50,080 nt of DNA from an uncultured Alphaproteobacteria bacterium. Its GTDB lineage: Bacteria > Pseudomonadota > Alphaproteobacteria > HIMB59 > GCA-002718135. The DNA is taken from the NCBI GenBank assembly GCA_902569865.1, contig CACFVT010000004.1:1-50080 (forward strand), written 5' to 3'. The translations under genes were made by a program, and so were the position numbers. Positions 18,335-41,839 of this stretch are shown here, one piece after another. The notes under the pieces were generated by a model, which did not search any database, had not been told where the DNA came from, and saw only the letters and a list, made by a program, of their open reading frames with translations. Numbering within the stretch: position 1 is the first letter of the stretch; every line of letters begins with the position of its first letter.

Positions 18335-19068
18335 TACTTTGCAGTAAGTAAAAATTCTGTATTACCTTTTGGGCCTTTGATAGGGCTTTCAATAATATTC
18401 AGCACTTCACAATTACACTCACATTCAAACCATGTTTTGATTTCATCACAAATACGAACGTGAATGTCAGAGTTTTTAACTACACCTTTTTTTGTTTCAT
18501 TTTTTTTTGACTCAAATTGTGGTTTAATGAGTACAATAATAATACTTTTATTTTTTAGTAACTCTAAACAAGGTAAGATAACTTTTTTAAGACTGATAAA
18601 GCTAACATCGCAAACTAATAATTCAATTAATTCACTAATTATATCTTTAGTAAGATAACGAGCGTTTATCTTTTCCAAATTTATAACTATTTTATTTTCT
18701 TTTAATCTTTCATGTAATTGATTTGTGCCAACATCAACAGAAAATACTTTCTTTGCACCTCTTTGAATTAATACCTCTGTAAAACCTCCAGTAGATGCGC
18801 CAAGATCCAAACATACTTGATTTTCTACATTAATATTATTTTCATCAAGTGCTTTAATTAATTTATAGGCTCCTCTAGAAACCCACTTGGGGCCAAGATT
18901 TTTGATTTCAATTAAAGAGTAAGGACTTATATTAAATCCACTTTTATTGATGATTTTTCCTTCAACAGAGACTTGACCTGCCATAATCATAGATTGAGCT
19001 TTTGTTTTAGAATCAGCTAATTTTCTATCAAAGAGTATTTGATCAAGTCGTATTTTTTTTAAAATCAA
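18325..19068 (-). CDS. tlyA: TlyA family rRNA (cytidine-2'-O)-methyltransferase / hemolysin-like
   Basis: 247 aa; S4-like [71 protein letters not shown]. Confidence 0.93.
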
Positions 19069-20987
19069 TTGCTTATATTTTTATTGAAAGATTGAAAATT
19101 AACTACGTTATCTTGATAAATCTGTATGATCTTTTTGGCAATAGAATCAGCATCCATTCCTATTTCTGAATATTGTTCTTCAGGAGATTGATGGTCTATA
19201 AATTTATCTGGAAAAAAAATATTATTTACTTTGGTTGATGTAATCTTAATTCTTTCATTATGAATATAATTTAAAACACTAGAACTAAATCCACCACTTG
19301 AACCTTCTTCAATAGTAAGCAAGTATTTATGATTATCTAATAATTGTTCTAGTAAATTTGTATCAATTGGTTTTGCAAATCTAGCATCTGCCAAAGTTGG
19401 TTGAATTCCATTGGCATTAAGAATTTTTATTGCTTCTTGGCAGCTTTGTAACCTTGATCCTAAATTTAAAATCGCTACTTCATTGCCTTCTTCAAGAATA
19501 ATTCCCTTTCCTATTTCTATGGGGTCAATATTATTATCATTATTATTAATTTCACCTGTTCCTCTTGGATATCTAAATGCCGAAGGCCTATCATTAATAA
19601 AAACAGTTGTATTAATCATTCTAATTAATTCATTTTGATTACTAGGTGCCATAATTATAAAATTTGGAAGTGTAGATAGAAAAGTAATATCATATGATCC
19701 AGCATGGGTTGGCCCGTCTGCTCCAACTAGTCCAGCACGATCAATTGCAAATCTTACAGGAAGTTTTTGTAATGCTACGTCATGAACAATTTGATCATAA
19801 GCCCGCTGTAAAAAAGTTGAATAAATTGCCACATATGGTTTAAAACCTTCTGTAGCAAGTCCTGCAGCCATGGTTACAGCATGTTGTTCAGCTATACCAA
19901 CATCAAATAACCTATCAGGATACTGAGAATTAAATATATCTAAACCAGTTCCACTTATCATTGCTGCAGTAAGTGCAACAATTTTTTCATCATTTTTAGC
20001 AACATTTGATAATGTTTCCCCAAAAATTGAGGAGTATGTTTTTTTATTTGATGAATTTAAAGATTGTCCTGTTTTAACATCAAATTTATTAACACCATGA
20101 AATTTATCATCAGATTTTTCCGCCGGCTCATAACCATAACCCTTTTTGGTCACACAATGAAGAAAAATTGGTTTATCAACTGATGAGTCTTTTATATTTT
20201 CTAAAACTTGAACTAATGTTTTAATATCATGGCCATCGATTGGTCCTAAGTAATAAAAACCTAACTCTTCAAATAAAGTGCCACCAGTCACTAAACCTTT
20301 TGAAAACTCCTCAGCTTTATACAAAGTTTTAGATACTGAATTTGATAACTTTGTTGATATTTTTTTTAATAAACTTCTAACATTTGTATATTGTTTTGAA
20401 GAAAGTAATTTTGTTAAATAATTACTCATTGCACCAACAGGTCTATCAATTGACATGTCATTATCATTTAAAATTACTATCATTTGTTTGTTACTAGCAC
20501 CTACATTGTTCAATGCTTCATATGCCATTCCTGCACTTAGCGCACCATCGCCAATAACAGATATAATTTTAGCATTATCATTATTCAGGTCCTTGGCAAC
20601 TTTCATACCCATGCCTGCAGAAATAGATGTAGAACTATGCGCTGTACCAAAAGGATCATACTCACTTTCACTTCTTTTTACAAATCCATACAATCCATTT
20701 TTTTGTCTTAAGGTTTCAATTTTATTCTTTCTGCCAGTTAGAATTTTGTGAGGATATGATTGATGACCGACATCCCAAATCAATCTATCTCTTGGAGTAT
20801 TAAAAACAAAGTGTAAAGCTATTGTTAGCTCCACAACACCTAAGCCTGCACCTAAATGTCCTCCAGTTTTTGAAACAGTTTCAATAGTTTTATTTCTAAG
20901 CTCATTTGATAAATTTTCTAATTCGATTAATGATAATTTTCTTAAATCAGAAGGAAAATTAATTTTATTTAAAAGTTTATAACTCAT
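19065..20987 (-). CDS. dxs: 1-deoxy-D-xylulose-5-phosphate synthase
   Basis: TKTGGHLGAGLGVVELTIALHFVFNTPRDRLIWDVGHQSYPHKILTGR, GDGALSAGMAYEALNN. ORF reaches 21026, but MSYKLLNKINFP (start at 20987) is the more plausible start. Confidence 0.95.
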   Translation of the reverse strand: MSYKLLNKINFPSDLRKLSLIELENLSNELRNKTIETVSKTGGHLGAGLGVVELTIALHFVFNTPRDRLIWDVGHQSYPHKILTGRKNKIETLRQKNGLYGFVKRSESEYDPFGTAHSSTSISAGMGMKVAKDLNNDNAKIISVIGDGALSAGMAYEALNNVGASNKQMIVILNDNDMSIDRPVGAMSNYLTKLLSSKQYTNVRSLLKKISTKLSNSVSKTLYKAEEFSKGLVTGGTLFEELGFYYLGPIDGHDIKTLVQVLENIKDSSVDKPIFLHCVTKKGYGYEPAEKSDDKFHGVNKFDVKTGQSLNSSNKKTYSSIFGETLSNVAKNDEKIVALTAAMISGTGLDIFNSQYPDRLFDVGIAEQHAVTMAAGLATEGFKPYVAIYSTFLQRAYDQIVHDVALQKLPVRFAIDRAGLVGADGPTHAGSYDITFLSTLPNFIIMAPSNQNELIRMINTTVFINDRPSAFRYPRGTGEINNNDNNIDPIEIGKGIILEEGNEVAILNLGSRLQSCQEAIKILNANGIQPTLADARFAKPIDTNLLEQLLDNHKYLLTIEEGSSGGFSSSVLNYIHNERIKITSTKVNNIFFPDKFIDHQSPEEQYSEIGMDADSIAKKIIQIYQDNVVNFQSFNKNISN

Positions 20988-20991
20988 AAAA

Positions 20992-21213
20992 CTAAAAATC
21001 TTCTTTTGTAACTTTGTTGTCCTCAATCATTATTTTTTTAATCTGCATTTCAATATCTTTTAGTTTGTTGTCACAAATTTTCTTAATTTTCATACCTTCT
21101 TCATATAGCTTAACTGACTCTTCTAAACCAATTTCACCAGACTCTAACTTTTCAACAATTAGTTCAAGTTTTTGCAAATTTTTTTCAAAGCTATTTTCTT
21201 TATCTTTACTCAT
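20992..21213 (-). CDS. xseB: Exodeoxyribonuclease VII small subunit
   Basis: 73 aa; FEKNLQKLELIVEKLESGEIGLEESVKLYEEGMKIKKICDNKL. Confidence 0.93.
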   Translation of the reverse strand: MSKDKENSFEKNLQKLELIVEKLESGEIGLEESVKLYEEGMKIKKICDNKLKDIEMQIKKIMIEDNKVTKEDF

Positions 21214-27130: not shown

Positions 27131-29032
27131 TTAGTTGGGTTGGGGGGCTGTTGTTCCACCAGATTTTGGAACTGAAGTATGAGTGGTCGAGGTAGCTGAA
27201 GTTGTATCGTCAAAATCATCACGAGAAGGTTTGATTCCTTTAATTAAGTCTTTAATTTCATCACCACTTAAAGTTTCGAATTCTAACAAACCTTTAGCAA
27301 CAATATGTAACTCTTCAATATTGTCTTGAAGAATTTTTCTACATAATTTGTCAGCTTCTTCAGCTAAAAACCTTACCTCGTCATCGATAATTTTTGCTGT
27401 TGAATCTGAGAGATTCTTTGATTGTGCAACTGAGTGACCCAAAAATACTTCTTCACTGTCATTATTATATCGTAAATTACCAAGTTTTTCACTCATACCC
27501 CACTCAGTAATCATTTTTCTTGCAAGGTTAGTAACCATTTGTATGTCACTTGCTGCTCCGTTTGTAATTTTGTCTTTACCAAAAATCATTTCTTCAGCTA
27601 TTCTTCCTCCAGTGGCTATAACTAAATGTGCTTTCATTTGATCTACCCTCATTGAGAATTGATCTTTTTCTGGAAGTCTCATTACCATTCCAAGAGCTCT
27701 GCCTCTCGGAATAATTGTAGCCTTATGAATTGGGTCAGATGCAGGTGAATGAAGAGTTGCAACTGCATGACCAGCTTCATGATAAGCAGTTAATTTTTTT
27801 TCATCTTCCGACATGACCATAGATCTTCTTTCAGACCCCATCATCACTTTATCTTTAGCATTTTCAAAATCTTCCAATGTAACCATTCTTTTATTTTTTC
27901 TTGCTGCCAATAAAGCAGCTTCATTTACTAAGTTAGCTAAATCAGCACCGGAAAAACCGGGCGTACCTCTTGCAATAATTTTAGAGTCAAACTTTGGTGA
28001 AACCTTAATTTTTTTAATATGAACTTTTAATATTTTATCTCTACCGATTATGTCAGGATTAGATACAGTAATTTGTCTATCAAATCTTCCTGGTCTTAAA
28101 AGTGCTGGATCAAGGACATCTGGTCTGTTAGTTGCTGCAACAATAATTACGCCAGCGTTTGCTTCAAAACCATCCATTTCAACAAGCAATTGATTTAAAG
28201 TTTGTTCTCTTTCATCATTTCCACCACCTAAACCTGCCCCTCTATGTCTACCTACTGCATCAATTTCATCGATAAATATAATGCAAGGAGCATTTTTTTT
28301 TCCTTGTTCAAACATATCTCTTACTCTACTTGCGCCAACACCAACAAACATTTCCACAAAGTCGGAGCCTGATATTGAAAAAAAAGGAACATTAGCTTCT
28401 CCTGCAATGGCTCTAGCTAAAAGAGTTTTACCGGTTCCAGGAGGGCCAACTAATAAGGCTCCTGTTGGTATCTTTCCTCCAAGTCGTGAGAATTTTTTTG
28501 GATCCTTTAAAAATTCAACTACTTCTTCTAGTTCTTGCTTTGCCTCATCAATTCCAGCCACATCATCAAATGTAATCTTGCCAATAGCTTCATTTAACAA
28601 TTTTGCTTTTGATTTTCCAAAACCCATTGCTTTCCCTCCACCTGATTGCATTTGTCTCATGAAGAAAATCCAAACACCAATTAACAGCAACATAGGGAAC
28701 CAGGATAGTAAAACACTTAAAATCGGATGCATAGATCGCTCTGATGGTTCAGCAACTATTTTTACACCAGATTGATTTAATTTATTGACTAAATCAGGGT
28801 AATTAGGTGAGTATGTTGAGAATGATCTTCCATCTTCAAAGAAGCCTGATACATTATTTCCAATTATTTTTACTTCTGAAATATTGCCATTATCTGCAGC
28901 TATAAGAAAATCAGAAAAAGATATTACTTTAGATTGATTATTAGAAGAGCTGTTTTGAAATAAATTAAAAAGAGCTATTAAAAGCAACCCTATCACAACC
29001 CATAAAATTATGTTTTTACTAAAATTTTTCAT
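27131..29032 (-). CDS. ftsH: ATP-dependent zinc metalloprotease FtsH
   Basis: 633 aa; [54 protein letters not shown] zinc site, SRH region. Confidence 0.99.
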
Positions 29033-29081: not shown

Positions 29082-29372
29082 CTATTTTTGAAAAAATGTA
29101 AGCAAATCATCGTTTTTTTTTATAGATACTCCAGTCAGATTAAAGATCTTAAAACTAGATTTTTTCATCTCGCTAATGAAAAGTTTAATTTTTGAGCTTC
29201 TTGCTTTGTATTTTTTATCTGAAAAAAATTTTAAACAAAGCAAAATAATTTTTTCAATTATAAGATCATCAAATTTTAAAAGGGTATCTCTTTTAATTTT
29301 AATGCTCTTAGGCTTAATTTCAAATATAGTATCGATTAAACATTTCCATACCATATTTCTATAATAAGGCAT
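29082..29372 (-). CDS. tilS: Probable C-terminal part of TilS in a different frame
   Basis: 96 aa ORF overlapping the end of the TilS N-terminal ORF; ends FKIFNLTGVSIKKNDDLLTFFQK, resembling the TilS C-terminal 'LGGC-x-I-xx-xxx-L-x-hxRE' segment. One base change in an upstream A7 tract would join the frames. Confidence 0.55.
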   Translation of the reverse strand: MPYYRNMVWKCLIDTIFEIKPKSIKIKRDTLLKFDDLIIEKIILLCLKFFSDKKYKARSSKIKLFISEMKKSSFKIFNLTGVSIKKNDDLLTFFQK

Positions 29373-30045
29373 TTCTTTTTTTCAAATTCATAAAATCATT
29401 TTTAATTAATTTTTTATATTTATTATTTTGTAAAAAATTTCTTACTTTTACTCTTGTATAATTTACATCTTTATTTGATGGATCATTTACAAAAATTAAT
29501 TTATTTTTTTTATTAAAACTAAGTATTGATTTTTTTTTTATTTTAATAAAAGGTCTTAAAATTTGTATTTTTTTAAAATAAGTAATTTCTTCCATTGATC
29601 CCAAACCTGCAAAATTGCTACCATTTATTTTTCTAATTAAATAAGTCTCCAAATTATCATCAAAATGATGGCCTAAAAATAAATGGTGGATATAATTTTT
29701 TTTACAAAAAGTAATTATTCCATCAAACCTATTGTTTCTTGCCTGTTCCATATTTTTTTTGATTAATTTATTTTTTTTTATTTTTAAAATTCTAGCGTTT
29801 ATATTTAAATCCCTTAAAATATCTCTCACATAGTGAGACTCTTGCTCTGAATTATTTCTAATTTTATGATCAAATATGAGGGCAGATAATTTACCGTGTT
29901 TTGATTTAATCCATTTATTGATAAGATAAACAAGAGCAATACTATCTGGTCCTCCAGATACACCCACAGCAACATGTGGGTATTTTTCAAAACATTTTAA
30001 ATTATTTAGATAGGAAAAAAAATTAATGTCATTTAATAACATCAA
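29359..30045 (-). CDS. tilS: tRNA(Ile)-lysidine synthase TilS, catalytic N-terminal domain (frame ends early)
   Basis: 228 aa; VAVGVSGGPDSIALVYL P-loop, FDHKIRNNSEQESHYV, FLGHHFDDNLETYLIRKINGSN, FVNDPSNKDVNYTRVKVRNFL. Confidence 0.9.
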   Translation of the reverse strand: MMLLNDINFFSYLNNLKCFEKYPHVAVGVSGGPDSIALVYLINKWIKSKHGKLSALIFDHKIRNNSEQESHYVRDILRDLNINARILKIKKNKLIKKNMEQARNNRFDGIITFCKKNYIHHLFLGHHFDDNLETYLIRKINGSNFAGLGSMEEITYFKKIQILRPFIKIKKKSILSFNKKNKLIFVNDPSNKDVNYTRVKVRNFLQNNKYKKLIKNDFMNLKKRNALL

Positions 30046-30965
30046 TTTGCAAATTCACATTCCATATTATCTTTTATTTTGTCAGGATCTTTTGCAAATT
30101 TGTTTCCTTTATAGTTTTGATTTAATATTAATAAGGTTTTGCATGCTTCAGAAAATTTATTCATTTCTTTTAAAGATTTAGATAACTCATAATACATTTC
30201 AGCCGCCTTTATACTTTGGGGAAAACGCTGAACACCCTCTCCAAATACAATAGCTGCTTTTCTATAATTTGACTCAAATAGATAAATTTTTCCTAACCAA
30301 AAATGTGCTGATCCAGAAAGTTGATTTTCTGGGAAGTTTTCAATAAATTCTTCAAGAGAAATCTTAGATTTATCATAGTTTTTTTTCATCATTTGATCCA
30401 ACGCGGCTTGTAATTGTTCTTCAGGTGTTAAAGTATTTAATTCTTTATCTTGATTTGTCATTTTTTTTTCTAAAGTTATTTCTTCATTATTAGAAATTTC
30501 ATTTGTATTTTCAGATATGACTAGTTTTCCTAGCGTATTTTCTTCTTCTCCATCTAATGTTGTTGATTTTTCTTTTCCACTAGATTCAATATTTTGAATT
30601 TCTATTTTATTCTTAATTTCATTTAAATTTAAATTCATATCATTTTCAAGTTTTTGGATATAATTAGAAAAATCATCCAATTTAAATATAATTTCCTCAA
30701 GTTGAAGAGTTAGATTTTTTATATCTTTTTCTAAATCATACATTCTAATATCAATAGAAGTAAATCTTTCTGCATCATCTTGATTATTTTTTAAATTCAA
30801 ATCATTGCTATCAAATGATTTATTAAAAACAGCTTTATTTAAATCACTTACTTCTTGCTTAATACGATCAAGTTGTTGTTTTACAGTCAGTGACTCCTCA
30901 GCGCTTAATGAATAAAAACATAAATTAGCAAAGACAAAAAAAATTATAGGTAAAAAGTATTTCAT
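30042..30965 (-). CDS. cpoB: Tol-Pal system coordinator CpoB/YbgF
   Basis: 307 aa; signal peptide, coiled coil, TPR region EEFIENFPENQLSGSAHFWLGKIYLFESNYRKAAIVFGEGVQRFPQSIKAAEMYYELSKSL; downstream of pal. Confidence 0.88.
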   Translation of the reverse strand: MKYFLPIIFFVFANLCFYSLSAEESLTVKQQLDRIKQEVSDLNKAVFNKSFDSNDLNLKNNQDDAERFTSIDIRMYDLEKDIKNLTLQLEEIIFKLDDFSNYIQKLENDMNLNLNEIKNKIEIQNIESSGKEKSTTLDGEEENTLGKLVISENTNEISNNEEITLEKKMTNQDKELNTLTPEEQLQAALDQMMKKNYDKSKISLEEFIENFPENQLSGSAHFWLGKIYLFESNYRKAAIVFGEGVQRFPQSIKAAEMYYELSKSLKEMNKFSEACKTLLILNQNYKGNKFAKDPDKIKDNMECEFAN

Positions 30966-41422: not shown

Positions 41423-41839
41423 GTGAGTAAAAAATTAGTTGCTTTTACAATAAGTACGCTTGATCAAGCTGAAGACATTATTTTAGAGTCTAAAATCCAT
41501 AAAATCAAACCCATACTTCATTTTAAATATTATATTCTTAGTGGCTTTGGTCCTGAATATGTTTTGATTTTTCAAAAAGTGCTAATTTCAAAGTTTGGAA
41601 AATCAAGCTTTAAATTGTTCATTGATTGTGGTTTTGACAGTAGCCTAAGTATAAGAATGGCAATAAAAAAAATTGAATATATAAAACTTAGGGGTAATTC
41701 AATTATTTTAAAAAAAATTAGAGAGATAGCAGATAAAAATAGAGTTTTATTAAATCCTTCTTTTAATATAGTAGACTGCAGAAAAATAGAAAATATTAAT
41801 TTAAAAATTAAAAAAATATACTCTAGGGAAAAAAAATGA
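41423..41839 (+). CDS. Conserved hypothetical between gap and efp
   Basis: 138 aa, GTG start immediately after the gap stop; PEYVLIFQKVLISKFGKSSFKLFIDCGFDSSLSIRMAIKKIEYIKLRG resembles an uncharacterised alphaproteobacterial protein encoded before efp (recalled pattern, not searched). Confidence 0.6.
   Translation: MSKKLVAFTISTLDQAEDIILESKIHKIKPILHFKYYILSGFGPEYVLIFQKVLISKFGKSSFKLFIDCGFDSSLSIRMAIKKIEYIKLRGNSIILKKIREIADKNRVLLNPSFNIVDCRKIENINLKIKKIYSREKK

Follow-up and report, generated by a model that had tools for sequence, protein, structure and literature searches.

TilS and one-base frameshifts in described genomes

The tRNA(Ile2)-lysidine synthetase TilS is considered essential and is found in about 98% of bacterial genomes (PMC12514573). 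The described enzyme with which the present locus compares is that of Aquifex aeolicus (1WY5/2E21), a short TilS of type II, a class defined by a CTD1-like region that follows the catalytic domain, the lack of a CTD2 and a single chain of about 310–330 aa. Indels and frames broken by them have been discussed in two settings. The first is the sequencing of single cells: in the pipeline behind the AG-xxx plates, benchmark cultures gave 3.0 indels per 100 kbp and a mean genome recovery of 60%, and plates AG-319, AG-414, AG-447 and AG-457 are listed in the same data paper (PMC6122165). The second is that of the AT-rich insect endosymbionts, where rescue of frameshifted genes by slippage was proposed for Blochmannia (PMC3017870). 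A transcriptome-wide survey of Escherichia coli and Buchnera found that homopolymer errors are mainly insertions, with few deletions, and that they restored the reading frame in none of the cases (PMC5574713).

A tilS gene interrupted at a run of seven A

The window (the whole stretch of DNA analysed here, 50,080 nucleotides) carries tilS as two overlapping open reading frames with an A7 tract between them (Table 1). Coordinates and translations bear out this arrangement and the early stop, both described in the original prediction. The upstream frame encodes 228 aa and ends in ...MNLKKRNALL before its stop codon, and the downstream frame encodes 96 aa starting with MPYYRNMVW.... On the coding strand, the junction reads TTG AAAAAAA G, and the removal of one A gives the continuous reading ...NLKKEMPYYRNMVW.... 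The neighbouring genes are a presumed CpoB/YbgF-like gene, which we take to be the end of a tol-pal gene cluster from the usual gene order of such clusters, and a gene that we take to be ftsH because of the AAA+ and HEAGH motifs in its translation.

Table 1. Features at and around the split tilS gene (positions in the window)
Feature	Position	Strand	Basis or remark
tilS 5' part, PP-loop catalytic domain	29359..30045	minus	228-aa frame with premature TAG; domain search
A7 tract (T7 as displayed), site of the one-base insertion	29376..29382	minus	coding strand compared with the three nearest relatives, which have A6
tilS 3' part, +1 frame, C-terminal ~97 residues of TilS (~320 aa in this lineage)	29082..29372	minus	homology to relatives
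Presumed CpoB/YbgF-like gene, directly upstream of tilS	30042..30965	minus	position and translation
Presumed ftsH, intact, directly downstream of tilS	27131..29032	minus	translation

The 228-aa product is the catalytic domain of TilS. It matches TIGR02432 (E = 2.4e-47; 161.3 bits, above the curated cut-off of 93.6) and Pfam PF01171 (E = 7.2e-48), the same PP-loop domain as in the A. aeolicus enzyme. The 96-aa product alone matches no Pfam or NCBIfam model. Its earlier description as similar to the C terminus of TilS holds only in terms of homology to the lineage's own proteins: compared with the C-terminal ~97 residues of TilS from three relatives, it shows identities of 94%, 83% and 78%, and in these relatives the residues are fused with the catalytic part in one open frame of 321–323 aa. 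The alignment of the family profile with A. aeolicus TilS (1wy5) ends at profile position 268 of 322, some 45 residues beyond the break. The window's relatives resemble this enzyme in their total of ~320 aa and in being alignable beyond the break, and those with comparable copies fit type II by length. In contrast, the chain recorded in the window stops at 228 aa, short of the type II range, and this record alone has the last ~97 residues in another frame, with one surplus A.

The tract and the reading frame in relatives

The original prediction had named an alignment of close relatives over the A tract as a check. The nearest TilS genes are those of the single-cell genomes AG-414-A22 (96% amino acid identity, measured between the 228-aa product and residues 1–224 of this TilS), AG-447-P14 (87%) and AG-319-D07 (83%). 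All three have TTG-A6-GAA followed by an open frame to about 320 aa. At the junction, the translations of the closest relatives are ...NLKKEMPYYRYMIW... and ...NLKKEMPYYRNMVW.... A DNA alignment over the tract, from which locus L005 was left out, showed that more distant relatives keep the reading frame at the junction with other codons.

The same holds for the family as a whole. Among the 292 genomes searched, all 78 members with a tilS uncut by a contig end, the window's own genome being left out of this count, have one open frame of 319–339 aa. The other incomplete copies (G030, G086, G090, G103, G115 and G132) run to the ends of their contigs. The window's tilS is the only copy in this set that is split inside a contig, and neither the A7 nor the split is common to any relative.

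The part of the gene beyond the break shows no sign of decay. No other stop interrupts it, and the dN between this part and AG-447-P14 amounts to 0.079, compared with 0.080 for the intact gene of AG-414-A22; this part thus shows neither the extra lesions nor the relaxed constraint of a pseudogene. Normal constraint acted on the window's tilS up to the very recent past, or still does.

One-base frameshifts elsewhere in the window's genome and in AG-414-A22

The window aligns to AG-414-A22 over its whole length (50,081 bp, 97.66% identity) with eight indels, of which five are not multiples of three. Two of these five lie in poly-A/T runs inside clear genes, and they break the frame in opposite genomes: tilS in the window and dxs in AG-414-A22. 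In the window, the dxs gene (19065..21026, minus) has A8 at 19219 and an unbroken frame, and AG-414-A22 has A7 and is frameshifted near the 3' end (locus L050, contig 4, ~34120), which makes it the reciprocal of the tilS case. The window and AG-414-A22 also differ by one G (GGG against GG) at position 41826, which alters the final codons in a short gene (41423..41839) that overlaps the start of an efp-like gene at 41836.

We extended the census of frameshifts to longer stretches (window's genome, 360 kb; AG-414-A22, 453 kb), which gave 154.6 kb of alignment and about 160 genes; apart from tilS, gene names are our own assignments from translations. On the side of the window's genome, this alignment contains three one-base frameshifts, in tilS, ftsI and murF, each with one additional A; the last two sites lie at ~8750 and ~11850 of G000:C2. 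Its ftsI (G000:C2:7496-8806, L061) has A8 where relatives have A7, and a frame of 440 aa instead of 552–556 aa. Its murF (G000:C2:10566-11931, L061) has A6 where relatives have A5, and a frame of 438 aa instead of 458–468 aa, the shift altering and shortening the last ~25 residues. AG-414-A22 has four others: in ftsI at another site (G061:C3:15448-17107, L083 of L079-L086; T6, compared with T5 in relatives), in dxs, in ubiA (T5 compared with T6) and in an ABC-type permease gene (T6 compared with T5). In five other relatives, ftsI is one long frame of 552–556 aa. Each of the seven frameshifts involves one base in an A/T run of 5–8, none is common to both genomes, and most of the genes concerned are normally essential.

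These counts correspond to in-gene rates of 1.9 (window's genome) and 2.6 (AG-414-A22) frameshifts per 100 kb, close to the published 3.0, with the reservation that the latter is an average over other species, not split by homopolymer, and is compared here with in-gene single-base frameshifts only (PMC6122165). At the benchmark rate, 4.6 indels would be expected in 154.6 kb, and about 2.3 of the 79 tilS copies would carry one if all came from single-cell genomes; we observed one. The assembly of the window's genome comprises 61 contigs and reaches 58.8% completeness. We infer from this fragmentation, from a completeness near the ~60% of such assemblies (PMC6122165) and from the single-cell origin of its closest kin that it is itself a single-cell genome. 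The pattern of unshared homopolymer slips in unrelated genes, at about the rate of the pipeline, matches the one expected of indel errors in single-cell assemblies.

Origin of the surplus A

The original prediction had left four explanations of the A7 unranked, and had named A6 throughout the relatives as the outcome that would point to error; the A6-type frame is what the relatives consistently show. Since the closest relatives show an unbroken frame with A6, 78 copies are intact and similar slips occur elsewhere in the genome, an assembly error is the most likely explanation, rather than new biology. As far as sequence comparison can tell, the A7 is probably a homopolymer indel error from amplification or assembly, and the gene an ordinary single-frame tilS of ~320 aa, of the short size of type II, in which the draft record would carry one surplus A. 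This base was most likely added by polymerase slippage during single-cell whole-genome amplification, or in the read consensus or assembly of the amplified DNA. The three other explanations (evolved slippage, +1 frameshifting and a TilS made of two polypeptides) are unsupported because no relative has the A7 or the split. For AT-rich single-cell genomes, this is a reason for caution: an apparent break at an A/T run turns up in about two genes per 100 kb, and without reads or relatives such breaks should not be taken for pseudogenes, split enzymes or recoding.

The main rival of assembly error is a true one-base insertion in the chromosome of the cell, either a fresh mutation or a low-frequency strain variant. 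In that case tilS would be defective, or chance slippage would rescue it in part. A/T runs are abundant (174 of 7–10 in the window) and mutable, and the intact state of the sequence beyond the break fits both readings, since a recent real mutation would likewise leave no decay. However, this account needs at least three fresh lesions (tilS, ftsI and murF) in normally essential genes within ~155 kb of one genome, and four others in its nearest relative. A real loss of TilS should also be costly, because the enzyme is considered essential and the AUA codon is frequent in the window (34.5 per 1000 codons). In searches for the tRNA-Ile(CAU) itself, a pattern of the anticodon loop proved too strict and was uninformative either way, returning nothing of use even in a 99% complete relative, and ARAGORN found no CAU tRNA in the analysed stretches, which cover only part of each genome. 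We consider a genuine mutation improbable, and we infer that the cause of the A7 was technical.

It is much less likely that the frame is restored during transcription by slippage on the poly-A tract, the mechanism proposed for Blochmannia and Buchnera. The broader form of this idea is similarly hard to credit, namely that the lineage truly bears scattered cell-specific poly-A frameshifts (tilS, ftsI, murF, dxs, ubiA) tolerated through slippage of the RNA polymerase, as a free-living parallel to these endosymbionts; if it were true, we would know of no earlier example among free-living marine lineages. The resemblance consists in an AT-rich genome with many poly-A runs and in one-base poly-A/T slips in essential genes that show no other decay, as in Blochmannia vafer (PMC3017870). 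The difference is that here none of the frameshifts is common to relatives and their density is near the error rate of single-cell assemblies. Furthermore, the polymerase would have to delete one A or add two on a tract of no more than A7, and tilS has several longer intact runs (A8–A10), which are of equal length in AG-414-A22. The survey of E. coli and Buchnera also argues against such a rescue, given the few homopolymer deletions and the lack of any frame-restoring transcription error among its results (PMC5574713).

The remaining two explanations have the lowest probability. Programmed ribosomal +1 frameshifting could in principle yield full-length TilS, as the coding sequence continues in the +1 frame after an A-rich junction, but it is hardly credible: the shift occurs in no relative, and the place of the shift is not marked by a stop codon, the one in the zero frame coming ~15 nt further downstream. 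Sites of the poly-A/AAAG type are classically of the −1 kind, and a −1 shift on the A run was rejected in its own right, as it enters the third frame, cannot reach the C-terminal part and cannot make the full protein. Nor is a frameshift or slippery site conserved among the relatives, all 78 comparable copies being single-frame and the three closest having A6. A TilS of two polypeptides, in which the 96-aa product would start at its own ATG and associate in trans with the catalytic part, is just as implausible: the start of this ATG precedes the stop codon of the upstream frame by 11 nt, which would allow translational coupling, but it is an internal Met codon in the intact TilS proteins of AG-414-A22 and AG-447-P14, and both parts are fused in every comparable relative.
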